The notes under the pieces are model-generated. The model saw nothing but the letters and a program-made list of their open reading frames with translations, made no database searches and was not told the DNA's origin. 64,000 nt of DNA from Isoetes taiwanensis (taxonomy: Eukaryota; Streptophyta; Lycopodiopsida; Isoetales; Isoetaceae). This document shows, in pieces, positions 27,756 to 60,554 of this stretch. Position 1 is the first letter of the stretch. Each line of letters opens with the position of its first letter. Location: contig JAJEKV010000056.1 in assembly GCA_021234155.1 (NCBI GenBank), forward strand, positions 4,842,356 to 4,906,355. The letters are read 5' to 3'. The translations under genes were made by a program, and so were the position numbers.

Positions 27756-27879
27756 CTTGTTGTAATCTGATTGTGTTAGTATCCAACGTAATCACACATG
27801 CTTTTGTAACACATAGTTCTATGAGATATACTATTAATCCAACTTGTCTTCTATATTCCAAATTGAATGACTCCGTTCC

Positions 27880-28460
27880 AATTGGGCGGCCGCCCAGTTT
27901 CCCTTTCTGGTCAAACAATTATCATATCCCTTCCTGGTGCTGAAATTGGGCGCCCGCCCAGTTTGCCTTGGAATACATAATTCTCTCGGATATACTATTA
28001 TTCCAACTTGTCTTCAAAATTCCAAACTGAATGGCTCCGCTTCAAATTGAGCGGCCGCCCAGTTTCTCTAGCAGAACCGAAGTCAAACATATATCATATG
28101 TCTTCCGAATCACCTCATGTTGAACTGGCACTGACAGCAACTAAATTGGGCGCCCGCCCAATTACCTCACGAGGACAAGGAAGGCCTCAAGTTGAACTGT
28201 TGGCACTGACAGCAACTAAATTGGGTGCCCGCCCAATTACCTCACGAGCACAAGGAAGGCAAACGTTGAACTGCTGACACTGACAACAACCAAATTGGGC
28301 GCCTGCCCATTTTGCCTCACAAAATAATCCTTGACCACATTATACAGCCTTAGATGGGACTTAAATTGAGTGTCCGCCCAATTATCCCAGGAGTTCTACA
28401 AATAAATTCAATTAAAGGTGCTGGCATTTACGGCAGCCAAATTGGGCGCCGCCCAATTTG
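27880..28460. repeat. palindrome array 1 (AAATTGGGCG..CGCCCAATTT), eight sites
   Basis: Eight degenerate inverted repeats at 27880-27900, 27943-27964, 28043-28065, 28143-28164, 28218-28239, 28292-28313, 28363-28384 and 28438-28460. The last has perfect 11-bp arms (CAAATTGGGCG and CGCCCAATTTG) around one base. The spacing is irregular. Two longer tandem units contain them: one with CCAACTTGTCTTC upstream (two copies), another with GAACTG and ACCTCACGAG around the site (two to three copies). Further sites lie inside the neighbouring gene (29411-29433) and upstream of it (33802-33825). Confidence 0.85.
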
Positions 28461-29746
28461 GCTAGCAAAGGAATCTTGGGAACTTTAAGACAAGGAAATG
28501 CGGGAAAAAATTATCATTCGTTAATAAAAAATAATTACAATGTTTTCAAATCTGCTCATGGTTGTAATCACAGGTTTCTCATGCGTCTGGAGGCACCTCT
28601 CCTGAATGCTCCTCTCTATGTTCTTCAGATAATCCAAGAGGCTGTTTTGCTGCCTCCTTGATTTTTTCCATCTTATGCACGAAATCTTCAGAACCCAGTT
28701 CCTCATTCACCTCATCTGCAGGCTCCATCCTTCAACTCTTCTTCACCCTCCCCTTCCTGAGTTTCTATGACGGCCATAGACTCCGGATTTTTCGCAACCT
28801 GTTCTTCGAATCTTGAGGTCCCCTGAATCATATCCTGAGTATTCACCAGCGCGGTCCCTGCCAGTGCATTGATGGTATCTTTTCTTCTCCTAAATCCAAG
28901 GGTTGCTGCTTTTTTGAGCTCTTCCTGAATTGAGCTCTTGGCCATTCTCAGAACGGATTGCACTTCGTGTATGGTTGTAGAGGAGAACGGACAAGGTGTC
29001 TCAAGAAGAGGAAGCTAAGGCGGAGGAATATTTTTGGAGCTAGAGGCCTTCTTCTTGCCTTCTTTTATCTTTTGTAACGCTCGAGCTCTTGATTTTTTCT
29101 CGTCTAACATGATGTCGAGTTGTTCAAATATCTAACAAGCTTAATTTGCAGCTTCTCGTCTGTCTCAAAAGATAACGCTTTATAGCCCTCACACAATGCA
29201 TCCCGGCTAAATGCACCACCAGAAAAGAAATCTAGGACAGTGCAACCTTCCATCATTAACTTCTGTATTAGATAGGTGCACGTCCTACACTCTAACTGAT
29301 TATGGACGAGAACTCCTCCCCCACCTGCTGCACCCTTATCGCACCAGGGACAATATAGCCATAAGCTGCAGGAAAAACAAATGTTAGAAATATTCATAGT
29401 ATACGTCACAAAATCCGGCGGGCGCCCAATTTGGAATCTATACCTGCTGCACACTCAATATTTGGCAAATTCTTCTCGATGTCCGATTTTCCTCGCAAAT
29501 GCTTAAGAAATTTAGCATATTGCTTAGGATGGTCCGAACTGGTAAAGCAAATATTTAGTTCATCTAGAGATGGCGGATCTCTGGCAACATACATGAGCAA
29601 GACAAGACTTTGCAACTCCCGCACTCTAGATGTAGAAGCACTTTTGGCCGGGGGGTCCTGGTAGGCGCCAACCCAAACACGGCTACCACCGTCTATTGTC
29701 TTCATGGCAGATAGGCACTCATTGAGGCGGTCCGGCATAATAAATA

Positions 29747-32700
29747 CTAGTAAGGGTGCCCAGCGTTGCTGGGCATAGAGTGGGAATGTAAATGACCTGA
29801 CAGAGTATAATCTTATACCTTGCCAATACTTCACAAATGAAATCCAATTTCTTGGAGCCATAATGTGTTGTATATTTTCCATCTTTCTTTTGTTTGAATC
29901 ATTATCGGTTAATTTCGGTATTTTTGATGTGTAGTTGTACATTGCCCTTTTATAATGCAACGGGTATTGGAGAACGTCCATGGTAATGGCCTTGTAATGA
30001 AATAACACTATTAGGATTGCATTAGTCTAAGTGTGTCAAGAACAACATGCATAGTATTATAATGAAATAGCTATATTGAGATGCATAGGTAAGAAATTTT
30101 GAGAGTGGAGATAATGATTCTAGATTTGCCTATAGCTGCCATAATTGTCTATAGCAACCAAGCCCAATGTTGCTGGGCTAAGTTGAAAACTTGCCTAATG
30201 ATTCTAAGTTTCTAAAAACACCATTATTCGTCGATATGAACACCATTATTTGTCGTAATTGTCTATAGCAACCAAGCATAACATTGCTGGGTTAAAGTTG
30301 AAAACTTGCCAAGAATCCTTACTCAATTCAATTCATACTATGTATTATTGTCTTGGTGCATTCTTTGTAAATGTGGTCTAGATCTCGTCCTTAGTTCAAT
30401 TCATATTATGTATTATTGTCTAGATCTCATCCTATGAAGTAGTATTAGAATATATTGAAGATTTTTCACTTGTATTAGACATAGTTCTTGGACATAGTCC
30501 TGGTCCACCTCTCTGCTAAATGATGACATCTATGTCACCTATTTCCAAAATCCATGGATGAATGACCATAATTTATGTATATACATATGTTGTTAGTTGC
30601 ACTTTTAGGAATGCAACATTTGCAAATGCTTCATAACTAACTCTTGCAAGAAGGAACTTCTTAGTAAAGAAAAGCATCCCATCTTGCAACATCGTAGAAT
30701 GCCTAGGCGTGCAAAAAAAGGCCGCTTGAAGGGAAATTAATTAAAGGCCGATGAGACTCCATAAAAAAACTATGTCATTACTCTAGAACACTGGATATCC
30801 ACAACTTCGGAAGACAGTCACTCACTGTTTCAGCAAGGCCATCAAGAAGTATATTTCATGAATAGAATAAACGACTTTCATGTTTGCACAATATTATATT
30901 GCATAACTGCCATGTTGTAGAATTCACTTAAAATTCACTAAGCATGGCAACTCAGACTTCACTAAGGTATAGCAACTGTTACAATAACTATAGTTATCTA
31001 TCAAAAATTAGAACATTGTTTAAAATATACCTCTTTCTTGAACTGCTTTTCCTTCCTGCATAAGCTTTTTCCCGCTTTGGAATGTCTTCTTCCTGCTTTG
31101 CTAATTGTACATAGGCTAGGAAATCTAGTGCTTGGTTTGACAGTCCTAGAATATAGTGATTAACCATCTCTTGTATGGTATTAAGCGCCTAAATCTATGC
31201 TTTCAAATTGAAAGTGGATGGACTATTAATAAATATAGTTGAGCCACGAAATTGTAGAATCCACCAAGGCATCAGCAAAGATCTGAGTATGTAAAATGTC
31301 TTGCTTGACAGAACTATAATAGCAATAACCAAACTCCAAGACCAACCAATATTGTCTTGAACATCAACCGAGAGAAAAACCCTACATGGATGCTCCAAAA
31401 TCACTCCTTTAAAAGAGAGGTTTTCTGCTACTTTTCCTCTGCCTAATCTCATCGTATAGATCTCTGTCAAGGAAATATAGATCTACCAGAAATGATTTAA
31501 CAAAGTGGATACAAAGAAAGCTGAGCAAAATTGGAACTTTCATAGAATTTACCTTCTCTTTGAACGATCTTAAAATAGCAGACATATTGAATCCTTATGT
31601 TTTAAAGCTCTGCCAAAATTGCTTGCCATGCATTGATCTCAATAGCAAAAGCCCCCCTTTGAAGGAGAATTTTCCATAATGGAGCCATTGATTTGCGTGG
31701 TTCCGAGCATAAGCTGGCATGCATGTAAAGACAGAGCAAGTCTTTAGTTAGGAACATCCTGCATAAGAAACCCATCACACTTTAATCCCATTTCAAGCTG
31801 CAAAATAACATGCAAAATAACATAAGCCTTCAAATGCTTGATCCCTAAATATGATGCAGATGATTGATAACATAGCAAGAAAAGACATGGCATACATGAA
31901 ATGCCTAACGGTGGAAAATAAGTTTTTAAGACATCACAACCATGTCCCGATTTTTGACGAATAGGCCTGTTGTATTGCTGGGTTCTCATAAACTGTTCTT
32001 AAAATCATTGTACTCAACAGAGGGGATGATCCAGGGATGGGTTCTCTTAAATTGAAATCACTGTGCTCAACAGAGGGGATGATCTAAGACTGATGCCTAG
32101 ATTGATAAACTCTACAAAAGAAAGATCAAGATATTTAGATCCAAGAGCTACTCAGGCATGTTCTTCACATGTTGACATTGTAAACTTACCATGGTTTTCA
32201 AAGCTTGAAGTCTCATAGCTCAGGTACTGGACAATAGTCACTTGAGGAAGGGAGGTGAAGCGGAAGAGGAAGAGCATTGGCACAGAGGCCATTCGAGTTT
32301 GGGAGATGGTATTGCCACAGTTCTTAACTACCAGACTTGGCTTGTAGTTAAATAGCTTTAGGTCAAAACAATGTTGGAAACACCAATGAATCTTACGCCA
32401 GAATTCGGGCTCTTCACAGCAGATGCATCATCAGAGCTAGAATCAAAACATCCGCCATCAGTAACCGAGAAGCTCTGCTCCTGACCTGACGATTCAAAAG
32501 AAATAGACTAAATCAAAAGAACAATGAACGAACAAAAGACAAAAAAAAACAGAGAAGCCCCAGAACTTCGGCTCAGCTCACATGCTGGCCCATTACCTGC
32601 TCTGCCATCGGGCCAAAGGTGTGGCGAGAAGGGGCTCCACATACAGATGGAGCATCACATGAAGCATCGCCAAATCTGCTCCAAGGATCTACAGTCTTGA

Positions 32701-33003
32701 GAAAAAATGGAGCTAGGCCGCCAAAGCATTCATGCTTTAAAAGATTATGGTAAAGCAGGCAGGTCTGGCAGCTGCTGCCTCCTCCACTTCTCGCTCCTCC
32801 GATCCTCGATCAAGCACCCTAAATCTGCCTTCTTTTTCTTGAAATCGGCTGCTATTCTTAGGGTTTACGTGCCCTTTTTTTTTCTTTTTTTTTTGCCGTC
32901 TAATTTAGGACGTGACATCATCTCTTCCATTGATTTCATCAAATCTGGGCCGCCCAAATTAGGGCTGGGTCCAACACTTACACAATAACATTATAATATA
33001 AGA
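29747..33003 (-). mobile_element. non-autonomous Helitron inserted in an exon of ParB/MTase gene 1
   Basis: On the minus strand it begins TCTTATATTATAATG after a host A (33004). It ends with the hairpin GCCCAGCAACGCTGGGC, a 7-base spacer and CTAG, followed by host T (29746). This is the 5'-TC..hairpin-CTRR-3' structure with A/T insertion, and there is no target duplication. Joining the flanks gives a continuous frame 'LYWIAIFIMPDRLNECL' through the junction. No Rep/helicase gene is seen. The interior carries exon-like pieces of a gene on the same strand. Hairpins of similar sequence at 30162 and 30276 suggest internal relics of further 3' ends. Confidence 0.75.
31195..32990 (-). pseudogene. 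captured gene fragments inside the Helitron
   Basis: Exon-like segments in order on the minus strand. One ends at about 32598 with donor AG/GTAATG and reads 'HECFGGLAPFFLKTVDPWSR' and 'RHTFGPMAEQ'. Another (about 32490-32395) reads 'GQEQSFSVTDGGCFDSSS'. A third (about 32400-32195) reads 'KPSLVVKNCGNTISQTRMA' and 'VTIVQYLSYETSSFENHG', ending at a GTAAGT donor. A fourth (31470 downward) starts after TTGACAG and reads 'MRLGRGKVAENLSFKGVIL'. The amino-acid composition and splice signals look like one plant gene captured with its introns. The gene was not identified. Confidence 0.4.
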
Positions 33004-33801
33004 TGGCAATCCAGTAAAGCTACTGGTCCGTCATTGTGCTAATCTGGTCAAGGAATTTTTTATAGTCTTCCATTGCTCATTTTTTTGTATATCTGAAGTC
33101 ACAGCCGATGAAACGGGTAGAAGTGTTCACTACGTCTAGGCACAAACCTAATGGACTCACGTGGAAACACTTAAACGGTTTGCCTCCCTCCTCAACTGGC
33201 CCAAGAAGACATTCGTCTACTTTGCAAAAGACGGACTCCGGAAAGCTTTCCTTCTCCATCTCTTTGCGTCCTTCAGCCCATCCACTGATAATGCTGGCGA
33301 ACATAAGCATTAAGTTCTCCGTGAATATGGGATGAGCTTGCCTCAAGGCAGCCATGTCATGAAATGATAGTTTTTTCACTTCCTTGAGGTGTCTGAGAAG
33401 CGCCCGCTCCATTGTTCCAATTTTTTTCAGCTCAAGGGCCCTGACCTTCATGATACGTCTGCCTGTATAATCTTTTCTTTCTTTGAGGAAAGTGGTGCCA
33501 TCCTTGATCTCCTTCATCAGCCTTTGCAGGTCTAGAGGATGCATGGACTTCAATGGGCGACAAGAATTGTTGGTAAACAGCCTTAACCTATCTTTCACTT
33601 CAATTTTTTCTCCCTTTTCATCCTTCAAATGATCTTCATAAAACAATTGCACGACTTCAGTGCACATGGACCACGTTTCGTCATCCAGGTAAACAAAGTA
33701 GTCGTAGTCACACATAGTTGCTTTCTTCAATGTTTGGAGCGCCACGGCTACCCAATCCTACAAGACACACAAAGCATTAGATAAGGCCCATCCAGATGTG
33801 G

Positions 33802-33908
33802 CAAATTCGGCGCCCACCCAATTTGCCTCAAGGGGTGCCAAATTGGGGTATAAATTTGATAGTGGTACCCCAAAATGCGCGAAAGCACCAAGCACCTAAT
33901 GCACCTAA
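33802..33908 (+). promoter_or_regulatory. upstream region of RING gene 1: array-1 site plus conserved promoter block
   Basis: An array-1 palindrome (CAAATTCGGCG and ACCCAATTTG, 33802-33825) and a half-site (33839) lie just before a block that reads GTGGTACCCCAAAA, then GCGAAAGCACC and AAGCACCTAATGCACC (33868-33908). The same block stands upstream of RING gene 2 (40556-40612), and its first half stands inverted upstream of the transposase-like gene (56648-56674). It is about 150 bases before the ATG at 34056. Confidence 0.6.
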
Positions 33909-34055
33909 ATTCGAGCAGTTATAGTTTTTTTCAGAGGAAATCATTTGTCTCGTTTCCTGCGCGCCATTCAGCCCCAATTTCGAATCCCCTGTTTCTGAAT
34001 CCTCTTCCTAGATCACCAATTCCGTCACACAATCCTTTGATCCGTTCAATTTATA

Positions 34056-35748
34056 ATGGCCGAAGCTGTGACCGAGCAAGAATTCATAGACATTCATGGA
34101 CTTTCTGGTGAAGGATTGCAGCCTGCTTTGAAAGTAAAATGGTTTGAAGAGAATGTAACAGATGCACAATGGGCCTCGGTTTGGCAAGAAGGCCCAAGCA
34201 ATAAGATGAAAGTTTCTATGATCCAGCCTCGGTACCAAGAAAAATTGGACAGATTGTTGAAAAAATTATATAAAAAAGAAACTATGGTAAACAATGAAGC
34301 AGGTGGCTTATGCTTTTGCGTGCGAACCCTGCAAAGCACAAGATCAATTGGGCCTCTTTTGGAGCTCAAGTCATGAAGTACAGAAATTGCAGGTCTAGGA
34401 GAAAGGATGTCCATGTTGCCACTTCTAGCAAAGTTACTTGCTTAGAAACTTCTAAATTAGACCACTCTGCTTAAAAAGAGAACTTTGAATTGATTAAGGA
34501 AGCTGTAAATAAGCTTGAGAATGAAAGGGCAAGCATGTTAGAAGAGGTGCATGCAATTGAGGTTAGTTTAGCTGCAGAGGCAAGTCTAATGAAAATTTCA
34601 GTGTGGAACTTAAAGAGAGCAGGAAGAAAGTTGAGGATTTGAAAACCTCAATATCTGAATTGCAACCAGATAATGCAAATTCTGATCTGATGAAGGAATT
34701 GGAGATCGCACTACAAATAGAGATATATTTCTGTAACCGAGTTCAGAAACTTTTCAAGTCTCCAGATACAGAAGCAAGCAGCTCGAGGAAGAATACCTTG
34801 GAAGTGGAGATCAAAGAGAAAGAGGCCAGAATTTCAGAACTAAGAGCTAATCTTTCTCATGTTACAGAACTAAAGAATATAACTTGTAATCCATTCTGTG
34901 TCAACACTATCAGCAGAAAACTACCAGGAATCTGCAACTTTGGTGCTTGCTGTGCTTGTGGCCTACTTTTTCATGATAGGTACCAATTGTCTTTGATTTT
35001 GAGTTGTGATCATGAGTACCATGTGGCTTGTGCAGCCTTGCTGAAAGAAAGTAAATGCAAGGTATGTGAGGGTGTAATTCATCCAGATTTATTTCTTGAG
35101 CTTGGCATGCATGTGACAGCAGAAGGAATTAAAATAGTAGATATGCCTACAGTAGATATACCTACAAATCAGCATGATTCACTTGTAAGGTCTTCTTCTG
35201 CTACTGAAGACTATGTGCCGCCTTCTGGAAGTGAAAAAGTGCTGGAAGATGCATTGTTGAGTCCTAAAAAGCAATTAAGGCAAAAAGTAGCTAGTAAAAC
35301 ATCCACTGAAATTTATGCAAGTGATGAGGATGAACCTGTTGTTGAATAGGATGATGCAGGATGTAGTAAGGATGTAGAAAGTACCCATATGAGAGAGAAG
35401 AAAGCAGCCAACAAAAGGAAAAGGAAAGATGGAGATGTTGCAACAAAGAAGAGCAAAAACATTAAGAAGGCAAAGAACACAGGTAAAGAAGTGAGGAAGT
35501 ACAATTTTAGGAGGAGGGCATTGGCAAAGGATATGGAAAAAGTGAACATTGAGGTTGAATCTGAAAAGGAAGAAACAAGACCAGAAAAGGAAGAAACAAC
35601 ACTAGAAAAGGAAGAAACAATAGGTGTTGATGCCAACACTGAAGTGCCACCTTGTGGTTCTGACAATGACACTGCAGGTACCAAAATGAATGCAATTATG
35701 GAGGTCTTAAGAGGCAATTCAAATGTGTCTCTAAAATCTTTGATTTAA
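34056..35748 (+). CDS. RING-H2 coiled-coil protein gene 1 (E1)
   Basis: Starts 'MAEAVTEQEFIDIHGLSGEG' at 34056. The amino-terminal domain shares 'IHGLS..GLQP', 'NVT..Q' and 'IQP....KLD.LL..LY' with the E2 copy. After about 34300 the frame shifts or an intron intervenes ('AYAFACEPC'). A coiled coil follows ('LKTSISELQ', 'EVEIKEKEARISELRANL'), then a RING-H2 pattern C-x2-C-x15-C-x-H-x2-H-x2-C-x8-C-x2-C at 34948-35067. The tail, after a stop at 35347, is a Lys-rich basic block ('KAANKRKRKDGDVATKKSK') and a Glu repeat, ending 'VSLKSLI' at 35748. RING-H2 domains commonly recruit ubiquitin-conjugating enzymes. That role here is inference. One to three frame breaks remain. Confidence 0.6.
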
Positions 35749-35917
35749 CTACAAATGTTTGAATGTTCAGGTACAATTGTATTACAAGACCAAAATGTTG
35801 AAAAAATGGTTGATCCATTGAATATTGTACTTGACAGTTATTATTATTTTAGTATTTCAAATTTCTGTTTGTGTTTGTGTTTGTGTTGGTGTTTACTTTA
35901 TGTTTTTTGAATGATAG
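35749..35917. other. short spacer or intron between RING gene 1 and FCP1-like exon
   Basis: T-rich, with TGTTTGTGTTTGTG repeats. It ends in an acceptor-like ..TGAATGATAG before the next exon, so it may be an intron joining the two reading frames into one gene. Confidence 0.4.
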
Positions 35918-36015
35918 GTGTATTGCAAAGTCCTCTTTGAAGAGGAAACTTCTTATTTTAGATGTGAATGGTGTTCTAGTAAGGACATACAGTAGGAACA
36001 ATTCTGTACGTGTGG
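35918..36015 (+). pseudogene. FCP1-like (HAD) phosphatase homologue 1, truncated after first exon
   Basis: Reads 'LKRKLLILDVNGVLVRTYS' with the motif Asp at 35961. This is the D-x-D-x-T/V signature of NLI-interacting-factor/FCP1 phosphatases with the second Asp as Asn. The full-length relative is at 51604-52348. Similarity ends about 30 residues in, where E2-type palindromes start (36029). The remainder should be on the other side of E2. It is broken by insertion. Confidence 0.6.
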
Positions 36016-36028
36016 ACAATTTGTATCG

Positions 36029-36130
36029 AAATGGCGCCGCTACGCCATTTGCCAGTCGAGAAATGGTGCAGCGGCGCCATTTCGATACAAATGGCGCAGT
36101 GGCGCCATTTCCATGCAAATGGCGCCGCGG
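36029..36130. repeat. palindrome array 2, left block (AAATGGCGC..GCGCCATTT)
   Basis: Three and a half sites in 100 bases: 36029-36051, 36061-36082, 36088-36110 and a half at 36115-36130. Arms are AAATGGCGC and GCGCCATTT (or TACGCCATTT) with 4-6 bases between. It lies just upstream of the start of ParB/MTase gene 2. Confidence 0.9.
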
Positions 36131-36181
36131 GTTGGGTTTGGGTTTCATGATTTGATTGTTGATTTGTTGTTTTCTTGTGCA

Positions 36182-37813
36182 GCTTCGTTGTCCAAGGCCC
36201 AAAACGTAGTGACGGAGAAGACCGTGGTCATGGCTGGAAGGCCATGGTGCATGGAAATTGTCAGGGCAATTCCCTTGGAGGAAGGGGTCGACCCCACAAA
36301 GGGGGACAAGAGGAGAGAACTTTGCCTCCTCACAAAGTCAAGAAGTGGTGAGCAAGACGTTGTGATGCAGCTTGGCATCATTGTCAACATGCGGGAGGTG
36401 AAAAAGCAGGGAAGATTAGACTTCCTTGGTTGCACAGTGGAGGATCCCGTGAATGTCAGCATTGACCTATACTGCATGGACTGGCAGTTTTACGATCCAC
36501 AGATGATGGAATCCAGCATCAAGGACCAGACAGTCTCTGCCAAAAGAAAAGGCTGGCCGTTGCCTTCATATGAAAACAGAGAGGCAGCTGGTATTAATGG
36601 CACGGTCGAGCTACTTAGAGGATTTGGCATTCTCCGTTCAGCTATGGACGGATCAAAGAACTCTGTGTCACATATTGCCAGAGCCAAGACCTCTTGTAAT
36701 ATGCCTGCTCTAATGAACATCACTTGGCTTCAACAGGAGATTTCAAGGAAAAAGCCAAACCTTAGGCAAGCCAAGCCAAGGGAAGAAAAAGCCAAACCAA
36801 AGGAAGTCCAAATGGAAGGGACAGAGCATGAGGAAGAGAATCAAAAGAAAGACGAGGAAAATGCCAGGTCTCCTCCCAAGTCAGCTCCCAAGTCTCCTCC
36901 TATCAGGATCGGTTCTCCTATCAAGTCCCCGGCCAAACAGGATTCAGAGAGAACCATTAGTGATACTAAATCCTCCCCACATCGGAGAGGTAAAGGCACC
37001 GCATCAACGGCTGAAAGCATTCCGCAGAAAAGGAGGAGGGAAACAAAGAAGGAGATGAGGGTCAGAAAGCAGAGGAAAATGGAAAGTCTGGAGGTGCCCT
37101 CGGAGTTGAAGATGGACCGTGATGCCGAGGAAGAGTTGGCAGAAGAAACTCTAAAAAAAATACAGCAGCACGGTCACATGTTTCCTCTAGGTGTGACATA
37201 TATCAGAAAAATATCCATCTGGGATATGGAAGAGGCACCTCCTAACATGACATCACGAGTTGTAAATCCTGAACATGTTAGGAAACTGTGCAAGTCATTT
37301 GCTGAAGATCCCCATCCAGTCTTCACGCCGGCAGATGTGGTGCCCTTTGATCCAGATACGAAGCAGCTAGTACCATGGTCACAAAAATCTGACCTGGCTG
37401 GTATGAGGTTCTACATCATCAATGGCAACCATTCTGTCTCAGCCGCTCAGCTCGTGTGTCAGAAGTTGGGGACAGAAGATGCCAGAATAGAACTCAGAAA
37501 GATTTACACTTATAGATTCTGCAAAGTTCTTTCTGGAGCACTGAGTGACTTGGACCTTCTTCAGCTAAGTGTGGACGAGAGCACAGAACTTGAGGATTCT
37601 TGCCTACATGAAGAAGGAGATTCTCAACTACATCCATGATGAACTTGGACTCAAGTACAGAAAGTTCGAGGACTTGAGAAAGGTGTCCGAGGGATTCCCA
37701 GACTCAACCCTCCTATCGTGGGGTGTGGTGCATAATAAGTGGGTCTCCGACGGCATCCTGAAAGAGGGCATCCATGGTAATGTGCCCTTCTCATTAGGCA
37801 GATCCATCCGTCA
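36182..37813 (+). CDS. ParB/MTase gene 2, amino-terminal part with ParB-like domain
   Basis: Acceptor-like TTCTTGTGCAG precedes 36182. The likely start is ATG 36230, 'MAGRPWCMEIVRAIPLEEGV'. A first globular region of about 170 residues has no named domain. A Lys/Glu/Pro-rich linker with a nuclear-localisation-like cluster follows ('PQKRRRETKKEMRVRKQRK', about 37022). From 37178 comes a ParB-like domain: 'MFPLGVTYIRKISIWDM', 'RVVNPEHVRKLCKSF', and 'MRFYIINGNHSVSAAQLV' (about 37405-37458), in the place of the I-x-G-x-x-R-x-x-A box of ParB/Srx proteins. The 470-residue frame is intact to about 37590, where one extra base shifts it ('YMKKEILNYIHDELGLKYRK'). It is cut by a Mutator-like insertion at 37814. 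ParB-like domains bind, and some hydrolyse, nucleotides or nick DNA. Confidence 0.7.
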
Positions 37814-38473
37814 GGGATAGGTTCTATACGTACAAAATTAAAATTTCTGACGTATAAAGTTAAAAAATACGTATTTTTTAATAAAATACGTATTTAACGT
37901 ATAAATACCTCGCCGGCCGGAAAAAAAAATCTTCGTCTTGAGAAACCTTCGCGGAAAGCGTCAGACGCGAAAATTTTTTCGCGTGCACGCTAAATAGAAA
38001 GAATCGCCGAAGCGATTGGCCGGGCGACATTCGCGTCGCCGAAGCTTCGTGGATAGCGCGTCTGCGAAAATTTTTCGCTGTCACGCTATCCAAAAACCAT
38101 TTCCGACTGACGTCTGCAGCCATGTGATGTTCAAAAAAAAATACGGCAAAAAATACGGCCAAAAAACAATTCCGGCGTCGGGAAGATTTTAATGCTGTGA
38201 AAACAACTAAATCGCGTCTGTGAAAAAGTCCGCTGTCTGTTTGGGCGTTGTTTTGTCTGTGAAAAATTTTGGTTTCAGCGTCTGGATTCGAAGGTTTTAA
38301 ACGCCGCGAAATTTTTCGCGTCGCGTTATAGTTGTTTTTTTCGCGTGCGCCGAAAAATCTTCCGACGCCGAATTGTTTTTGTCGTATTTTTATGCTTTAT
38401 ACGGCAAATTTGTGCCGTATCATACAATTCATACGTATTCCATATAAAACGTACAGCGTATTGAACCTATCCC
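37814..38473. mobile_element. 660-bp Mutator-like MITE in ParB/MTase gene 2
   Basis: The inverted ends match: GGGATAGGTTCTATACG at the left and GGGATAGGTTCAATACG reading inward from the right. The flanks carry an imperfect direct repeat, CCATCCGTCA (37804-37813) and CCATCCGTAA (38476-38485), close to the 9-10 bp duplications of Mutator-like elements. The interior is non-coding and holds several TTCGCG-type short palindromes. Confidence 0.75.
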
Positions 38474-38485
38474 CGCCATCCGTAA

Positions 38486-39457
38486 GCTTTAAAGCCCGAG
38501 GCCGAGGGCGACCTCAAAAGATTTTATGTGGAGTCGCTTTCTAGTGGTGGGATTGTCCAGATCCGATCGTGTTGTCCGCCAAAGATGATCCGCTTTGGAT
38601 GCGAGGCAAATTACTCCGATTTGGGATCCCGCCACTGCCAAATTCTTTGATGTTTGCTTCTAAGATGACAGATGTTGAGACATACCGATAATATGTTTTG
38701 CTAAGCCGAACATACGAAGTCTCTTCCTCGCAATGCCCCGAGAGACTAGAATCCGTGATCTAGAGTTTACTTAGGCATGTACGAAGAGGAAAGTGGGTGG
38801 GCACCGGTGGTGGCATAAAAGAACCAACACCGTGGTTCTAGCCACCGTGATCTCAGCCCAAGCACGACCGATGAACACCGGATATCGTGTTTTATGGTGA
38901 ACATCCCCGGAAAGCACCTGAAGTTCCTAAGACCCATAAAGATGCAATTGGTGCCGAGCCAGAGAATCTGGCTAACAAGCTCCTGAGGGACAGGTTCAAA
39001 TACGGTTGGCAAGGTATGGAAGGGGAATACTTGGTTCACAAGCAGGTTGGTCCTGCTACAACAGCATACCTTGTCGATAAGCTCTGCCCTCCAGGTAACT
39101 TTGTTCTGGACTTTTTTTCTGGTGGGGCTTTTGCTAGGGCATCATTGCAGTTAAAAAGGAGTTGTATGGCCTATGAGCATGATGGAAAAAAGATCCAATG
39201 TATGCTAGGGATCCAGCAGCCATGGACTCTCGTAAGGTTTTGGCACTCACTAGACCTACTCCAGGTGAGACATCACATGGTGGTGGAGGAGAGACATCAC
39301 ATGGTGGTGGAGGAGAGGGGTCACAGGCTGGTGCAGGAGAGGCCACAGGATCCAGGGAACAAGTGGTAAAAGACACAGATTCGTAGGTTGACCGAAGTAA
39401 GATTAACCCGGATGATATTGATAATGCAGATGATAATGTTTTTGGTGATGAATATTG
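38486..39457 (+). pseudogene. ParB/MTase gene 2, carboxy-terminal methyltransferase-like part
   Basis: The gene resumes after the MITE with 'KPEAEGDLKRFYVESLSSGG' and, in shifted frames, 'PLWMRGKLLRFGIPPLPNS'. From 38887 one frame reads 'APEVPKTHKDAIGAEPENL', 'GWQGMEGEYLVHKQVGP', and AdoMet motif I 'NFVLDFFSGGAFARASLQ' (Asp at 39109) followed by 'CMAYEHD', the layout of the last block of beta-class DNA amino-methyltransferases (VLDPFxGSG..E.D). A short GETSHGGGG tandem repeat lies in the tail, which ends 'DDNVFGDEY' at 39457. A DPPY-type motif IV was not found in this copy, and the frame is broken, so activity is doubtful. Confidence 0.6.
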
Positions 39458-39597
39458 AAAATTGATTTGCATATCATACTTGTATATAAGATTTACCTCT
39501 GTGGTATTGTTGATTACTGTACTGATTAATCTTTTGAATACTAATGACACATACGATCTTAATGTATTTGCCCCTTTTGTATATCTTACTTGTAAAG

Positions 39598-40540
39598 CAA
39601 ATAGCGCAGCAGCGCCATTTGCAATATGAATATATTGCAACAGACTGTGCGGCCTCGCTATTTGTTTGCTTTTTCCCGTGTATTGTCCTTATGATTCACT
39701 TCAAATGCAGCGACTTTATTGCTTTTTTTCCACAATTTTTATTCAAATGGCGCAACCAGGTTGTTTCGCCCGTCGATTTCCGCCCCATTTCGTGTCAAAT
39801 AGAGCGGTTTTCATGCTAATCCTTGTGCATTTTTAAGTAAATAGCGCAGATTTGATTGCTGAATGTGTGAAAAAACAACGAACAATTTCATTTCGAGCCA
39901 AAATGGAATCACGAAATTTCCAACTTTAATGAAATTCTGCTTATGGAGGGAGAATATCTGGTGCATAAACAGATTGGTCCTGCAACTGCGTTCTACCTTG
40001 TTGATAAGCTCTGCCCTCAAGGTAACATCGTACTAGATTTCTTCTCTGGTGGAGCCTTCTCTAGGGCATCCCTTCATGTAGGAAGAATCAGTGTGACATA
40101 CGAGCATGACTTAGGAAAGATGAAATGCGTATCGGGCATTCTGGGTAGGATCGATAACGTCATGTACCCCTGGCTTGACCCAAAGGCCATTGCCCAATGC
40201 CAACGGGAAGTCTTGACTTTGCAAGATGGTGAATCTCAGAAGGGGGTAGACGAAGAAACTTCTCATACAGAGAAAGGTGAGACGTCGGGCCAAGCTGGAG
40301 CAGAGCAGGATCAAATTGACCGCAGTAAAATTAACCTGGATGATTATGAGAAAGTCGCTGATGAACACTTCGGCAATGACTATTAAAAAAATTCTCTGTT
40401 TTGAAAAATTGTATCTTATGTAATATTTCTATTAATATATATCTACATGGTCTTCGGAAAATATGTGTTATCTATAGCAAAATGGCGCGAGAGCACTATT
40501 TGCTTGGTCTTCACGTTCACGCAAATAGCGCGCCTGGGTG
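39598..40540. repeat. palindrome array 2, right block (AAATAGCGC / AAATGGCGC sites)
   Basis: Sites around the last exon of gene 2: CAAATAGCGCAG with AGCGCCATTTG (39598-39621), a half at 39645-39664, CAAATGGCGC (about 39753), AAATAGAGCG (39798), AAATAGCGCAG (39839), AAAATGGCGCGAG with CACTATTTG (40479-40502) and GCAAATAGCGCGCC (40520). The last one abuts the promoter block of RING gene 2. Confidence 0.75.
39940..40386 (+). CDS. second copy of the methyltransferase terminal exon
   Basis: Begins 'MEGEYLVHKQIGPATAFYLV' and repeats motif I 'NIVLDFFSGGAFSRASLH' (Asp at 40036), 'VTYEHDLGKMK', and an acidic tail ending 'EKVADEHFGNDY' at 40386. It is homologous to 38990-39457, with an unbroken frame and many synonymous-looking changes, so it is a diverged duplicate. 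It could be the true last exon of gene 2, with the preceding copy bypassed, or a remnant of a second gene. The domain is only the AdoMet-binding part. Confidence 0.6.
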   Translation, partial: LMEGEYLVHKQIGPATAFYLVDKLCPQGNIVLDFFSGGAFSRASLHVGRISVTYEHDLGKMKCVSGILGRIDNVMYPWLDPKAIAQCQREVLTLQDGESQKGVDEETSHTEKGETSGQAGAEQDQIDRSKINLDDYEKVADEHFGNDY

Positions 40541-40545
40541 TAAAT

Positions 40546-40615
40546 ATGGTAATGCTACCCAAAAAAACGCGAAAGCACTTAGCACCTAAAGCACTTCCAA
40601 GCACTTAGCAACCCG
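40546..40615 (+). promoter_or_regulatory. conserved promoter block of RING gene 2
   Basis: GGTAATGCTACCC followed by an A run, GCGAAAGCACTTAGCACC and TAAAGCACTTCC. It matches the block upstream of RING gene 1 and the inverted one upstream of the transposase-like gene. The start codon follows at 40777. Confidence 0.6.
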
Positions 40616-40776
40616 TAGTTATACCTCCCACAATCTCGACCTCGGTTTCAGCGCGCACCTAGCTTCCAGGCACCTTCCTTTTTTTTTTATCCCAATTTGT
40701 GTTTCTTTTGCTCTGTTTTTCTCCCGCTCACATCATAGATCAATTATCCGGAACTTACATTCGTGAATCGATTACA

Positions 40777-40815
40777 ATGGTAGAGGAGGCAGTTATAGCT
40801 GAGGATTTCGAAAGG
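40777..40815 (+). pseudogene. RING gene 2 (E2), first 13 codons before E3
   Basis: 'MVEEAVIAEDFER' parallels the start of RING gene 1 ('MAEAVTEQEF'). E3 follows directly. The rest of the gene resumes at 49492, and after removal of E3 and one AAGG the next codons give Ile-His, the conserved 'IHGLS' start. This shows insertion into a once intact frame. Confidence 0.85.
40812..40815 (+). repeat. target-site duplication AAGG of E3, left copy
   Basis: AAGG precedes the E3 left end. The same four bases follow its right end at 49492-49495. A copy of the right junction with AAGG is also present at 58489-58492. Confidence 0.85.
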
Positions 40816-40880
40816 AACAAGGTTTAAAATGAAACGCACTTATTTAAGAAGTGCGTTTGAAAGATTCCTTTATAAAAATT
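40816..40880 (+). repeat. left terminal inverted repeat of E3
   Basis: AACAAGGTTTAAAATG, then CGCACTTATTT and AGAAGTGCG, then AAAGATTCC. It is the reverse complement of 49430-49491 with a few changes. Confidence 0.85.
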
Positions 40881-41290
40881 GAAAACTTAAAAAAAAACAC
40901 ACAAAATAGGGAGCAAAATAGATTGTTGAGCAATTAGCATTCGGGATACCCCCAAAAAAGCAACATTTTTAAAGCTTTTTCATTTTAAAAGGAGGGCAAA
41001 AAAAAAAAAATGCTTGTTTTAAGGAGAGAGACATTAACTTTGATAACTCAGTAAGTATTTATTGTTAAAAACAGAAGGAAATATGGATTGTTTTTTTGCA
41101 AGCTTAATAGAAGTACTAAAAAAGTCAAACATTGGAAAGACAAAGAGTGTGAAATCCTGGAGCAAGAAAGAGTTGTTTCAATTAAGCATTGTTAGAGAGA
41201 CAAAGCTTTCAGTTTAAAAATCTTCATCAAAATAAATTATAATATTACTTAGCACATAGTTTACAATGAAAGTGGTTAAGAACTCTGTCT
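40881..41290. other. subterminal non-coding region of E3
   Basis: Very A+T-rich with several A homopolymers. No coding signal or repeat family was noted. Confidence 0.5.
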
Positions 41291-41367
41291 GTATAAATTT
41301 ATACGAGAGGTGGCTCTTCCCAGCCACAGTGACTCTCGCACCCTTTGGGATCTGGCTCTTGCGAAGC

Positions 41368-44300
41368 TTACAAATGCCAGAGACGCCTCTTCGATTCCAA
41401 ACCTATTGGCACAAAGCGGTTTCTCCGCTCGGGCACCACAGGCTCCAAGTCAACAAACTCCACCTCCTCATCTCTTCTTCCCCAAGTAGTGGAGGTCATT
41501 TTACGTGTAAGTGCCCTTAGCATCGCCGGCACCGCTTCTTTGCTCCCAGTTCCTCGTTTTCATCGTGAAAGGATTCGCAAGAGCTTATCCCGGTCCCGAT
41601 GAAGCTTACTTTATCCGGGTCTATGTCGACGAGATCGACATTGCGCCCCGCTAAGGGCGAAATCTGCCGTGGTGCCCGATCCGAAAAAGGCATCTAGGAT
41701 CCGATCTCCGTGCCGAAAACCATCATCAAATTATTAATAAGCCATTGTGGCCGATAATGGGACACCACAGCTTTGTCGCTGTGGGTCTCTTAATTTCTCG
41801 AAAACAAATTGAACCTAAATGCATTGCGGGGAGGAGTCTTTTCATTCTCGTGTTAAAATGAACCATGGTTTTTTGGCGTCCGCTACTGTAAAAACCTATA
41901 TGAAAATGCTCGAAACACTCACTAAGCTGACCACCACCATGACCCTTGACGCTTGTTTTAAGCCCGCCAAGCAATATAGAAATTAGAAATTAGTAAAAAG
42001 AAAACAAGGAAAATAAGTTAGCCCAGGCTTGTAGTGTGGCGGTATAAACTTATACCACGGTTGCCTTGTCAGATAAATTTATACCACGGCAGAAGTCAGA
42101 TAAATTTATACGACATTGCCTTGTCAGATAAATTTATACCACGGTTGTTCCGCACTTTTAAAATTTAAACCTTAAGACAGATGTGGTATAAATTTATACC
42201 GTGGAGTTACCGTGAAAACAAAAACGAATTGTGAAGCTTACCAAACGCTAGCTGGCCGGCCAAGCATGCATCGCTCCCATAGGTTTAAGCACCGACATCG
42301 CCCCAAGGTCGGAATGAAAATGATGACCCTCCGGTTTTTAGATGTCGTGACTTCTTTGAGGCCATCCAGAAAGACCGGACTTGCACGTGAGTGAAAGCCT
42401 CCTCATCAAAAGCATTATCCTTTATTTTAAATCCATAAGGAATATCTCGCAATGCATAATGTAAAATGTTGCTTGTCTAAAAGAGTCCCCACCTTGTACA
42501 ATCACCCTCAACAACCCCTCAGATTGGACGCCCCGACCAAATGTGGTAAATCTCTCATATGTACAAATAAAAACCGAAGTGGCGAATTCTCTACCCCTGC
42601 TCAATTGCCTTTAACCTTTGCCTCTCTTCCTTGGCCCTACGAACCAGGTTCAAAAATCCAAAGGTAGCCCCTTCTTCTTGTTCTGTAAGAGTAATGTGAG
42701 ACATAGGCACAAACACATAACATATTTTTTGCAAAACTTACCGAGCCACCGGGTTAATCAAGTGTTTCCTCGATGATACCGTCTGTGGTACAACTTGGGT
42801 ACAAAAGTTTGCACTCCTCCCAGCCTTCTAGGTTGAGCCGCTTCATTAACTCGGCCGGGAAGTGACAATGTCTTTCCTCGACCGCAAAGGGAAAAATATG
42901 GTAAGACAAAAAGGTAAAAAACATGGCATAGCAAGTGAGGCTTACGCTTTAGCTTCCTTGGCCATCTCGCCTAATGTGAATTCTTTGGCAACTACTTTTT
43001 CCAACAAAGCAACAAATATTTCTTTGCTTTTAAGACCCTCAGAATCAAGGCCCGTGGTACAATGCTCATATTTTTTTGTTTTACTTCACCACCTTTCTTT
43101 GGTTTCTTTCCTGCGTCTTTAGCTTGTTCTTTGAGCTCCCCATCTTCGAACATACAAAAAATTCTTTCTTGAAGATCCCACACCTGTAAATGGTCAAACG
43201 GTTTAGTGCCGAATGGCGAAGAGGATGGGCACGGCGACTCAACACGGTATATAAATTTATCACGGCGGGCGGTATAAATTTATACCGTGCCTGTTCGGTA
43301 TAAATTTATATCACACCAGCCACCGTATAAATTTATATCACACCGTGCACCCGTATAAATTTATACCGCGGCCAGGCACGGTATAAATTTATACCGCGGC
43401 CAGGCACGGTATAAATTTATACCGCGGCCAGGCACGGTATGAATTTATACCGTCACTAGGCTATTACAAGATTCTAACCACGCTAAACATACTACAGAAG
43501 ATTGAATTGAATCTTTTACTTACTTGACCATCTCCTCAAAGCGAAATAAAGTAGTTATCGTATTGTTTGACAGCCATAATGGGCTTCTTATCGTAATCAT
43601 AGCTCGTGCAACACTCACACACGCCTCGGCTCTTGAAGCTTATTCTTCTGTTTTTTGAAGTCCTCTCCATGCATTTGTTTGAACTCCACGTACTCTCGAT
43701 GCATGAATCGGATCTTATCTATTAGGCTCATTTTTAACCGAAAGTCATTGTCAAGATTGTGACTTACGGCAATGACTTTTGCCTCTTCGTCTGTGACACC
43801 CACGTAAATATGGGCTTCCACGCTTTTCCACACCTCGTTACGGGTTTCCTCCTTTGAGAGTTCTTTTCTAGCCTTGTAGCTGTGTGTGCCTCCAAGGACG
43901 TAGTAGGTGTAATCTTCGAAGTCTGCTTTTTGTAATCCCGCAATCGATTGCATTGACTTCTATCAACCATAAACAACTAGAGGCTTACACATGCGCATGA
44001 GGATTTCTTCTCATTCTTTGCTTAAGAATGGCCACATGTGCCGCTGCATAACTTTTCGACCTGCAAAGACTCGACCCCATCTTCATTTTTGGTGGCCTCT
44101 TGATAGTGCTTAGTGTCAAAGAAATGGTTTGTTTGAGCAGTTTGGTTTCATTAACCCGCTTTGAGAATAGCACTTGACTTATCTCAAGGGCTTCACAACG
44201 ATGTTCCGCCCGTGAGCCTTCTCAAGAGCTTCACGACTTCTATAGTCAAGGGCTTTGTTTTTCTAGATTTTTTCTTGGTAGGAGGCTGTGTATCTAGTAC

Positions 44301-44525
44301 CAGGGAATGCTTCCTACCCTTTCCCTTTGTGTTGACTGGTTCCTCCTCTTCCTCTTCCTCTTCCTCTTCCTCTTCCTCTTCCTCTTCCTCTTCCTCTTCC
44401 TCTTCCTCTTCCTCTTCCTCTTCCTCTTCCTCTACCTCTTCCTCTACTACTTCCTCTTCGATACTACGGGGGTACCATAGACCCTTGACCAACACTTTTT
44501 CGTCGCACAGCACTATTGACATCAA
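41368..44525 (-). pseudogene. ParB/MTase gene 3 (E3): acidic tract, ParB-like domain, methyltransferase-like domain
   Basis: Minus-strand exons in order: 44525-44193 'MMSIVLCDEKVLVKGLWYP', a Glu run coded by (GAGGAA)n, then a basic nuclear-type cluster 'PPTKKKSRKTKP'. A ParB-like domain follows (43953-43615): 'YYVLGGTHSYKARKEL', 'VEAHIYVGVTDEEAKVIAVS', 'HNLDNDF'. Then come 'WDLQERIFCMFEDGELKEQA' (43183 down) and a methyltransferase segment 'LRDIPYGFKIKDNAFDEEAF' then 'LKTGGSSFSFRPWGD' (42449-42300). D-I-P-Y at 42446-42435 fits motif IV, (D/N/S)-(P/I)-P-(Y/F), with the downstream L-K-x-G-G. Motif I is uncertain ('ADFALSGA', about 41650). The last frame ends 'ESKRRLWHL' at 41368. Frameshifts and unresolved introns remain. 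Confidence 0.65.
44340..44457 (+). repeat. (TTCCTC)n microsatellite coding the Glu run of gene 3
   Basis: Near-perfect TCCTCT/TTCCTC hexamers. On the minus strand they read as Glu codons inside the first exon of ParB/MTase gene 3. Confidence 0.95.
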
Positions 44526-44584
44526 AATTTCTACTACGCCCCGTAATGGGTTATGTTAAGAGACCGACCAGATAAATTTATACC

Positions 44585-45949
44585 TAAAGCACCTAAGAAT
44601 AACTTACAAAGCCGTTCTTGTAATTGTCCGAAATGTAATCGCACGCCTTTTAGGCTTGCACATGCTTATTTTAAACATTCTAGTATTCGTAACATAGTAG
44701 ACGGGGCCCTTGTCATGGTTGCAATCGCATTAGAACTTCATCATCGCTTCAGAAAGCAACAAGTTTCATAATTTCGCCAAATAGGTAATAATCATCGACT
44801 TGAACTTGCCCTTCCCCGATTTATTGCACAAGTAAAGGTAATGTATCGTTGGGTTTGCTCTCTCTTGCGCCCCGGACGCATTCAAGTCCGATCCTTTAGT
44901 TCATAAGTCTGTGGCTCGTGGTGCGGCCTTTGATGATGACCACGAAAGTAAAACTTGATCTTAGGGTCGGAAAACGCGCGAAAAAAACCATTTTTACACA
45001 AGAATATTAACCTTTTTCGAAGTTTTTGAAACACAAAAACAAGAGAAAAAGAGGATGAAAGGGCATAAAATCCACACTAAATTAACACTTTATTTGTGTC
45101 ATTTAGGCTGGAAACACACGCTAATATTAATTTAAAAAATATTAAGGTTCGACCATTCGCTGAGCACTAGACATCAAGAATCAAAATAATTTCGAACGGT
45201 AGATAAATTTATACGGCTGAAGCACGAAGCGGTTTAAATTTATATCGCCTGCAACACGCCGGTATAACCGACCGTGTTCGAGCGGTATAAATTTATACCG
45301 CCGCGTTCGAGTCGATAAATACCGATCGGTTCGAGCGGTATAAATTTATACCGCCGTGCTTCGAGCCGTATAAAATTATATCGCTTGTGCTCGAAGCGGT
45401 ATAAATTTATACCGCCTGCAGCACTTGCGATTATACCGCCGAACAAGGCGATAAATTTATACCCATCCAGAGTCATCTCGGTATAAATTTATACCGGGGG
45501 CTTACACTCTAAATGATTAAAACAAAAGAGAAACTAAAACAAGACGGAAAGTAGACTTACGTGGCCATGACCGTATGAACTAGCTGCATACGTGTTCCTC
45601 GAGAGCAAATAAGAGGGGTATATATATGACCATGAGAAATTTCGACTCCTAGTCACAGATATGGAAAATAGGTGGCCGCCGCTTAAGTACCCCCCGCTAA
45701 GTGCCGCTTCGTATAAGCGCTTCTCCATAAAGATTCCAATACAAGTGTCTTTGAGTTTTCGTGATAAATTTATACCGTCTTTCCTCCTCCTCAGATAAAT
45801 TTATACCATCTCTCAGTATAAATTTATACACCGCAGCCTACAAGTTTGCCTTCTCTCAGATAAATTTATACCATCCCTCGTAAACTTTTACCGCCCCGCT
45901 ATTCTCGTCAGATAAATTTATACAAAGGTGACGCTACCTTTCCGAAAGT
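44585..45949. promoter_or_regulatory. divergent intergenic region of E3 with array-3 sites
   Basis: Lies between the 5' end of ParB/MTase gene 3 (minus) and the plus-strand gene starting near 45950. It holds about 13 of the 28 palindromes, in two clusters. No protein-like frame is supported; one minus frame (45476-45240) is the repeat translated as GGINLYR-type units. Confidence 0.55.
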
Positions 45950-48900: not shown

Positions 48901-49090
48901 GGTGGCCAAAAAAGATGATGATGAGGACTCACTTGTAGACAAAGGAGGAAGAAGATCGCTCGAGTACATCCAGCTTTGAGAGTGAAGCCGAGGATGAAGG
49001 CTCAAGTGATCGTGGATTAAATGAGTCTGAGGATGAGATGCATCCCCGATCTTGCCGCAAAATGTAAGTTTGTCCGATGACTCAAACATG
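45950..49090 (+). pseudogene. plus-strand gene of E3, function unknown
   Basis: Begins near ATG 45950 ('MAREKEPQSLQLPARAASS') with a Pro/Thr/Ser-rich part. The middle is broken but protein-like ('STPQVDLLDEETPHVDVSHE' near 46470, 'GYVSRETNLQEGEDWFPRLL' near 47755). From 47945 conserved pieces read 'EETYDFKEWIFQEINW' and 'IEPLRNITFQRSIK', then 'SKKEGRAFDSSKSLDFIETS'. The end reads 'IRKGMLIAVPPIMMSPGSRS', 'LAKVLEVTRED', 'FFRGSYTLEMVKTEWERE' and a Lys/Asp-rich tail to about 49090. The last part (48560-48760) looks like a small chromatin- or BAH-type beta module, a weak impression. The 47929-49090 part recurs at 56934-58090. No family was identified. Confidence 0.45.
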
Positions 49091-49429
49091 TAAAAAAAAA
49101 CGTAAAGAGCAGGTGATGATGATCCTCATCAAAATGTTCTATATTTTTGACAATTTTGTTCATAATTTTGTACAATTTTCACAACCATGAATATATCACT
49201 TCTTTGTCACTCTATTACCCTTGCTATTTTTTTAATTGCCCCTTTTTGCTACACTTTATAAAAGTAATTATTTTTGTTCTAGTTTAGAGGATGAAAATTG
49301 CTATTTGAAATTTTTGCATGAAAGTTATGTTCAATCAACCCCTCAAAAATGGTACCTAAATTACTTAAATTGTCACACCTGTCACAAAAAAATCTTAAAA
49401 TGGACTTTTTAAGGAATTTTAGGAATCTT

Positions 49430-49491
49430 TCAAAGATTCCTTTTGAAGTGCGCTTCCAAAGAAATAAGTGCTTTTCATTTTAAACTTTGTT
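49430..49491 (+). repeat. right terminal inverted repeat of E3
   Basis: Ends ..CATTTTAAACTTTGTT before AAGG. It is the inverted counterpart of 40816-40880. Confidence 0.85.
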
Positions 49492-51309: not shown

Positions 51310-51603
51310 GCGTAATAATTCATTCCCATTGTTTAATTTGAATTCTTAAATTATTGTATTCATTATTTGAGTTGTCTTCAGAATCTTCGTGGAGTGACCA
51401 AGTAGTCCAAAGTGATGAGGACTTAAATGTATCCCAATTAACTTCCGTGTCTTGTGCTTTTTTAATTTAATCTCAATATTTGTACTTGAATTTGGGTGTG
51501 TATTCACTTGATTAATGTTGTGAATGTTAGGTCCACTGAAGTACAAAGTGTAAATGTAGCTTCAAGTTCCACTGCACTACCGATTGTTATTAGGTAAAAG
51601 AGA
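51310..51603. other. spacer or intron between RING gene 2 and FCP1-like gene 2
   Basis: A+T-rich. Two acceptor-like sites (ATGTTAG at about 51530 and TTATTAG at about 51595) bracket a short exon-like piece 'VASSSTALPIVI', which suggests the two frames may form one spliced gene. Confidence 0.4.
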
Positions 51604-52348: not shown

Positions 52349-52839
52349 TCCTAGTGTAAACTTTTTAAATTGCCTCAATTTTGTTACATAGAGGCATGTA
52401 AATATGTGAGTGCAGATTTGCCTCCATTTTGTACAGATACTATGAGAGTACAGATTTGCCTCCATTTTGTAACTACAAAAGAATTTTGTACCATCTTGCA
52501 ATGTAATATATCTTCATTCTCTTTCATTGTGTTCTTTTATGAATTTTCTTGAAATTGCAAAGTTAATTGTGCAGATGTGATGCTTTCCCAATTCAAGAAA
52601 AAATAGTTGAGAATCCAAGACTAATTACAGCCACAACCCAAACTGTTTGCAAATGATTTTAATCTTGGCAGGAACTCAAAGGAGTTGAGAAGATGTGGAT
52701 TGATTTTGACCTAAGTATTGCATCGACCTTTGTTCATATTGATGACACCGACCAGTGTCAAAATTTGGTCAATGTCCCCGGGTCAAGTCAACTTTTTGCA
52801 CACCTCCCAAAGATCGTAATTCGTGAATTAACCTCCCAC
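52349..52839. other. convergent 3' spacer between FCP1-like gene 2 and the transposase-like gene
   Basis: Contains a short direct repeat, CAGATTTGCCTCCATTTTGTA, split as two copies at 52416 and 52451. No coding signal. Both flanking genes end here. Confidence 0.5.
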
Positions 52840-60325: not shown

Positions 60326-60554
60326 GCGTAATAATTCATTCCCGATTGTTTAATTTGAATTTTAAATTATTGTATTCATTATTTGAGTTGTCTTCTGTAA
60401 ATCTTCGTGGAGTGACCAAGTAGTCCAAAGTGATGAGGACTTAAATGTATCCCAATTAACTTCCGTGTCTTGTGCTTTTTTAATTTAATCTCAATATTTG
60501 TACTTGAATTTGGGTGTGTATTCACTTGATTAATGTTGTGAATGTTAGGTCCAT

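Follow-up and report, generated by a model that had tools for sequence, protein, structure and literature searches.

VANC proteins are a known family-specific anti-silencing system of VANDAL transposons in Arabidopsis, and VANDALs are Mutator-like elements. VANC motifs are reported to form tandem arrays within their own element, both upstream and in introns (PMC5735166). Here we describe a locus of similar layout in the lycophyte Isoetes taiwanensis, in a stretch of 64,000 nucleotides (the window) that holds one copy each of three gene families: gene 1 (family A), gene 2 (family B), and gene 3 (family C). All three are real homologous blocks, all three window copies are damaged, and each family is accompanied by its own palindrome, termed A, B, or C. 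Such family-private palindromes suggest proteins that recognize only their own DNA, perhaps as an escape from plant silencing. The explanation we favor, with somewhat better than even confidence, is that each family's protein recognizes its own palindromes and marks its own copies, which would amount to family-specific anti-silencing and activation of the VANC kind.

The formal parallel with VANC and VANDAL drawn in the first-pass annotation of this DNA holds for the motif arrays of the sampled loci, and by analogy the A/B/C system works like VANC in layout. Common to both are a family-specific protein, short motif arrays in the noncoding DNA of the family, and tandem expansion (PMC5735166), along with a specificity that would diverge together with the protein (PMC5735166, PMC10398659). 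VANC21, however, is described as binding YAGTATTAY in same-orientation arrays, whereas the sites here are perfect palindromes of 16-22 bp. The protein is also of another kind, ParB-like plus methyltransferase-like, with family C carried in a DUF7869 transposon, so that the two systems are likened by layout and not by sequence. If the reading is true, a lycophyte version built on other proteins would show that family-specific anti-silencing evolves repeatedly.

Three further systems resemble parts of this one. The N4CMT of bdelloid rotifers is likewise a bacterial-type amino-methyltransferase in a eukaryote, with a transposon connection and a histone-reading module, but it belongs to the host and contributes to transposon silencing, whereas here the enzyme is carried by the transposon (PMC8885841). 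Fungal TET/JBP DNA transposons carry a DNA-modifying enzyme for which an escape from host methylation has been proposed; they differ in that the reaction is oxidation of 5-methylcytosine, and the abstract makes no mention of a family-specific motif array (PMC12730594). Phage proteins that fuse a ParB-CTPase fold to an N6_N4 methyltransferase likewise combine domains of these kinds in a single chain (PMC12704722), whereas the present genes lie in plant transposon-like elements with presumed introns and have the P-motif arginine replaced. In the main text of that phage survey, the strings "plant" and "transpos" occur 0 times (PMC12704722). Among the titles and abstract openings listed, our literature search found no ParB/methyltransferase system in plant transposons.

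Pairing of gene families with palindromes

The first-pass annotation had proposed three site types, each grouped around one gene, and site counts in the window bear this out. At a tolerance of three mismatches summed over the two arms, the window has 9 A sites at 27879-33824, 5 B sites at 36029-40501, and 25 C sites; of the last, 24 lie in 41290-45872, and the remaining one, at 29804, is weak. As a control, 200 arms permuted at constant composition yielded on average 0, 0.05, and 0.5 sites for A, B, and C (maxima 0, 3, and 3), and half-sites cluster in the same way as full palindromes. Across the assembly (1,658,258,908 bases in 1110 contigs), the exact palindromes A AAATTGGGCGnnCGCCCAATTT (22 bp), B AAATGGCGCnnnnGCGCCATTT (22 bp), and C GGTATAAATTTATACC (16 bp) occur in 2788, 2385, and 7218 copies, respectively, and the same patterns read backwards, as a control, occur 0 times. 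AAAT...ATTT ends are common to the A and B palindromes, and their cores differ.

The proposed rule of one array for each gene extends from the window to the genome. For the pairing test, 30 gene-2 and 30 gene-3 loci, the window copy being one of each 30, were chosen by protein similarity alone. When palindromes were listed de novo, 28 of 30 gene-2 loci had the B palindrome among their top words, and all 30 gene-3 loci had the C palindrome there. Cross-tabulation of A/B/C sites at no more than two mismatches gave 0/154/0 for the 30 B loci (28 positive), 0/0/408 for the 30 C loci (all positive), and 17/0/0 for three A loci (3/3 positive), leaving no off-diagonal site. Palindrome type thus tracks gene family in the sampled loci, which was the outcome sought in the suggested comparison of homologue loci, and the placement of sites at promoters and gene ends also stood, with presumed introns as a further location. 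Family A was viewed in 7 places only: sites are present in one close gene-1 copy (L065) and three diverged relatives (L066-L068), and two places picked by A palindromes alone, the first two listed (C8:63447 and C8:81040), both contain gene-1 pieces. The candidates scored after a first look were 150 of 2342 for C, 150 of 2095 for A, 79 of 9965 for B, and 150 of 9901 for DUF7869.

Conservation of the palindrome arms carries more weight. Between copies, the arms of exact sites mismatch at 4.4% in B (30 loci) and 3.3% in C (31 loci), as against 25% at the B center, 17% (B) and 23% (C) in the 15-bp flanks, and 11% (B) and 13% (C) elsewhere; in both families divergence of the arms is about 4-7 times lower than that of nearby bases. 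Locus L052 lies inside L069 and was not counted separately. B arms are fixed across loci, whereas B centers and flanks vary widely, and in the diverged B copies L025 and L027, whose upstream DNA aligns with few other loci, the arms are the same and the centers different. No blastn alignment between A loci spanned an exact A site. Three relatives of gene 1 (68%, 68%, and 54% amino acid identity) nevertheless have A sites with 0-3 mismatches between the same exons, and the most distant of them, L067, has perfect 22-bp A palindromes in the same two inter-exon gaps as L065. Parts of the B and C arrays (L025:3268-3345, the L070 array, and window 43271-43451) repeat every 27-28 bp, which might suggest that the spacing itself matters.

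The proteins are conserved as well. Ratios of nonsynonymous to synonymous divergence (dN/dS) are 0.02 for the ParB-like part of C (13 copies, dS 0.76), 0.09 for the C methyltransferase exon (7 copies), 0.07 for B (11 relatives), and 0.12 for A (4 copies). If the reading is true, the three families would be a clean setting for tracing protein specificity alongside the DNA site.

Protein domains and a histone H3 tail

The A and B proteins are homologous over much of their length. Identity is about 40-50% at the methyltransferase-like end and about 37-42% in the ParB-like part, and long stretches of the middle have about 22-28%. The C protein is distant from both; its ParB-like part, compared by profile with that of A/B, gave an E of 4.5e-5 against 0.2-0.3 for reversed controls, and 5e-4 in another run.

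Beta-class amino-methyltransferases had been proposed for all three genes; the proposal holds for gene 3, and genes 1 and 2 have methyltransferase-like ends. Family C plausibly carries such a domain, matching PF01555 above cut-off (E 4e-11) and presenting DIPYG (motif IV) and then DAFSGSGTTA (motif I). Motif IV before motif I is the permuted order of the beta class. The closest solved structures in a PDB search were M.MboIIA, M.RsrI, and CcrM, which C resembles in motif order and profile match and from which it differs by DIPY instead of DPPY and by a split over two open frames, presumed to be exons. In the place of motif IV, (D/N)PPY, A has CDFRNIKKW and B has CLDARQITPIW, and PF01555 remains below cut-off for the gene-2 end (E 0.013) and for an A query joined from three copies (E 0.01). 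Families A and B lack the catalytic motif IV, and methylation by genes 1 and 2 is therefore unlikely; their methyltransferase-like part probably works, without catalysis, as a DNA-binding part. The C methyltransferase makes functional N6-methyladenine (6mA) or N4-methylcytosine (4mC) in plant DNA testable at a 16-bp sequence with more than 7000 copies.

Palindromic sites are typical of ParB, whose proteins load there, and the P motif of ParB reads GxxR. The ParB domains named in the first-pass annotation were not recovered above threshold by any search. Pfam ParB_N (PF02195) has 0 matches in this genome, compared with matches in 11 of 14 control genomes; hhalign against a purpose-built plasmid KorB/ParB profile gave E values of 0.11-0.43, not above controls (0.03-0.53, with one control better); PDB profile and NCBIfam searches of the ParB-like parts returned no ParB match; and a search for viral or plasmid relatives of these parts matched none. 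The two best PHROG matches of C are to "ParB-like partition protein" at sub-threshold values (E 0.03 and 0.17), and C has a weak DUF6551 match (E 0.046). An AlphaFold2 run without an alignment gave a predicted local distance difference test score of 39.6 for the ParB-like fold, too low for use. At the P motif, C has GGTHSYKA and B has NGNHSVSA (NGNH in A/B), with the conserved arginine replaced. Because the ParB sequence tests gave nothing above threshold, we use "ParB-like" as a label and not as a claim. Conservation of the P-motif arginine is described for ParB, and phage proteins are reported in which a ParB fold is joined to DUF6551 or to an N6_N4 methyltransferase (PMC12704722).

A feature beyond the first-pass annotation is a mimic of the histone H3 tail carried by gene 1 elsewhere in the genome. 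The gene-1 copies L065 and L003 start MARTKQTARVPG (tail at L065:114-140), and in A proteins whose start is intact the first residues are MARTKQTARV, which copies the H3 tail through R8 and has V in the position of K9 of H3. This peptide is encoded at 307 genomic places in two gene families, A and a second one, with many synonymous codons and a control count of 0; with the codon for K4 left open there are 308 places, and K4 is kept in 307 of the 308. To judge from these counts, the N-terminal ARTKQTAR of A is kept by selection. Among the first 100 tail places, 13 lie upstream of one of 90 checked gene-1 copies, all on the same strand. The tail was not found in the B or C loci compared, and 0 of 59 B and 0 of 150 C genes lie within 8 kb of the 100 tails.

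Loci L071 (C907:19374900-19378699) and L072 (C568:254200-257999) belong to a separate multi-copy family with the MARTKQTARV start, a long charged linker, and a histone H3 fold that is degenerate in both (PF00125, E 5e-22 and 4e-11). They were considered as a fourth palindrome family and rejected, being H3-like histone-fold genes without a palindrome array. Since this separate family has the histone fold, the tail may have originated in a captured H3 gene and passed from element to element. Among the publications listed by our literature search, none described an H3-tail or histone-mimic transposon of this kind. For a transposon-borne, probably DNA-binding protein to carry an H3 tail would be a novel means of interfering with chromatin.

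The C transposon and explanations of the arrays

Gene 3 sits within a larger transposon that carries a DUF7869 gene, again beyond what the first-pass annotation described. C is a DNA transposon with terminal inverted repeats and dispersed copies that have one terminus in common: that terminus is found in L069, L070, and the window, its inverted repeat lies at the other end of the window copy, and AAGG at 40812-40815 and 49492-49495 is a candidate target duplication. The two ends together with AAGG were observed in a single insertion, and the left end in three (window, L069, L070). The DUF7869 gene (PF25273, E 1.4e-46 at L070:7844-8608) is the probable C transposase. Among the best 150 genes of each kind, 18 pairs of C gene and DUF7869 gene lie within 12 kb, where 0.33 are expected, and 18 of 18 are divergent. 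C palindromes fill the presumed introns and the promoter region between the two genes. DUF7869 itself has 9901 first-look candidates genome-wide, of which 150 of 150 scored pass the cut-off, many with long open frames; our literature search found no publication naming it.

From the features computed here, namely the families, their exclusive pairing in the sampled loci, the low arm and protein divergence, the C transposon, the motif states, and the tail, we infer a mechanism of binding, methylation, and anti-silencing, with introns presumed from sequence. The A, B, and C proteins would each bind their own palindrome in their own promoter, introns, and 3' end, and this binding would mark only their own copies and keep those copies active. 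The C protein may methylate adenines in GGTATAAATTTATACC, making the array sites an element-specific mark, and the A and B proteins may bind only. The tail MARTKQTARV of A would recruit or titrate H3K4 readers or writers. In its most specific form, which we regard as less likely than not, a transposon-borne amino-methyltransferase would write bacterial-type 6mA or 4mC marks only at its own palindromes, and the other families would have swapped catalysis for binding, one of them with an H3 tail mimic by which active-chromatin machinery is brought to its own copies.

Several points weigh against recognition and marking of own copies. Pairing alone proves little because copies of one transposon have common noncoding DNA; the exclusive pairing is by itself partly expected, and the weight rests on arm conservation. 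Two B loci, L024 and L032, have no B site at two mismatches or fewer. The arm measure, with its 4- to 7-fold difference, conditions on an intact site in one partner, a bias that we estimate at up to about two-fold, and the alignments behind it may anchor on the arms. The dN/dS values are biased low because matches were ranked by protein score. CpG loss is 13.7% in B arms compared with 34.5% elsewhere, which protection and plain selection fit equally. ParB membership is not established, the resemblance in sequence being weak. A and B have no DUF7869 neighbor in the scored sets (0 links, with 90 of 151 A and 59 of 83 B genes placed), and in C the DUF7869 protein could be the binder.

The strongest competing explanation, though an unlikely one, is autoregulation or a partition-like clamp, in which binding at a family's own promoter and introns controls expression or clusters copies and leaves silencing unaffected. 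The promoter and intron location of the sites is in keeping with this, as is the loading of ParB at palindromes. Fusions of a ParB fold with an N6_N4 methyltransferase in phages (PMC12704722) would fit as well. The idea loses ground with the failure to establish ParB membership, and the H3 tail of A and the methyltransferase of C point instead to marking of chromatin or DNA.

Next in rank, and improbable in our estimate, is the idea that the palindromes serve transposition as sites of the transposase or a TnpA-like accessory protein, with the methyltransferase-like gene a passenger. Subterminal repeats are common in plant DNA transposons, and C has both a DUF7869 gene and arrays in the shared promoter region. 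The sites are, however, mainly in promoters and presumed introns; in the window copy, the ends of the element are about 0.5 kb and 3.6 kb away from the outermost C sites. Moreover, arrays of this type occur in A and B with no DUF7869 neighbor in the scored sets, and the feature common to A, B, and C is the ParB-like/methyltransferase-like gene. A third idea, very improbable, treats the arrays as neutral hitch-hiking satellites that underwent one expansion in each family and seem exclusive merely through common ancestry. The 27-28 bp tandem spacing does show expansion by tandem duplication, but the arms diverge less than center or flank, B arms stay fixed beside variable surroundings, and A sites are retained between the exons of a relative with 54% protein identity whose noncoding DNA did not align.

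Features and surroundings of the window

Gene 2 forms a homologous block at about 36100-40386 on the forward strand and gene 3 one at about 41400-44555 on the reverse strand, and the other coordinates are collected in the table. A coiled-coil/RING-like gene at 34057-35750 was considered as part of the B element and rejected, since 0 of 29 other B loci cover it in the 1.5 kb upstream that were examined.

Table. Coordinates of genes, palindromes, and elements in the window
Feature	Position	Strand	Remarks
A palindrome array AAATTGGGCGnnCGCCCAATTT	27879-28460		3' end of gene 1
Gene 1, family A	28526-33758	-	truncated, lacking N-terminal and ParB-like exons; at least 151 matches in family
Gene 1 C-terminus	28715-29014	-	
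Gene 1 methyltransferase-like pieces	29409-29750, 29107-29454	-	
A palindrome	29411-29432		presumed intron of gene 1; L065-L068 have sites between same exons
Gene 1 mid domain	33080-33757	-	
A palindrome	33803-33824		presumed intron, directly before gene 1 mid exon; window copy ends abruptly upstream of site
B palindromes AAATGGCGCnnnnGCGCCATTT	36029-36126		presumed intron upstream of gene 2 exon
Gene 2 N-terminal and ParB-like exon	36182-37636	+	contains FYIINGNHSVSAAQ; ends in apparent internal deletion, ~37565
Later insertion inside gene 2	37816-38465		inverted ends of GGATAGGTTC type; read directly; spanned by none of the other B loci compared
Gene 2 methyltransferase-like end	38875-39366	+	VLDFFSGGAF; weak N6_N4_Mtase match
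B palindrome	39599-39620		after gene 2
Last exon of gene 2, second diverged copy	39871-40383	+	
B palindrome and half-site	40480-40531		after gene 2
C element, DNA transposon, ~8.68 kb	40816-49491		terminal inverted repeats AACAAGGTTTAAAATGAAACGCACTTATTT / AAATAAGTGCTTTTCATTTTAAACTTTGTT
C palindrome	41290-41305		3' end of gene 3
Gene 3, family C, inside C element	41368-44555	-	degraded, frameshifts; open frames in copies elsewhere
Gene 3 methyltransferase exon remnants	42288-42476, ~41500-41989	-	
C palindrome array	42041-42200		presumed intron of gene 3
C palindrome array	43271-43451		presumed intron of gene 3; period ~28 bp
Gene 3 ParB-like part	43618-44221	-	
C palindromes	44569-45923		gene 3 start and promoter region common to gene 3 and DUF7869 gene
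DUF7869 gene remnant	46498-48793	+	divergent to gene 3; probable transposase

The C element interrupts one of a series of host-like genes, which lie at 34057-36010, at 40778-40815/49492-52345, and from 58484 onward; B and A stand at the edges of another one. These genes combine a coiled-coil/RING-like exon, recognized by eye, with an NIF/FCP1-type phosphatase exon (PF03031, E 1.6e-13). Window positions 47927-54986 and 56935-64000 are a duplication with 94% identity. To the left of gene 1, at 7168-27755, are duplicated blocks that by eye resemble nested gypsy-type retrotransposon sequence.

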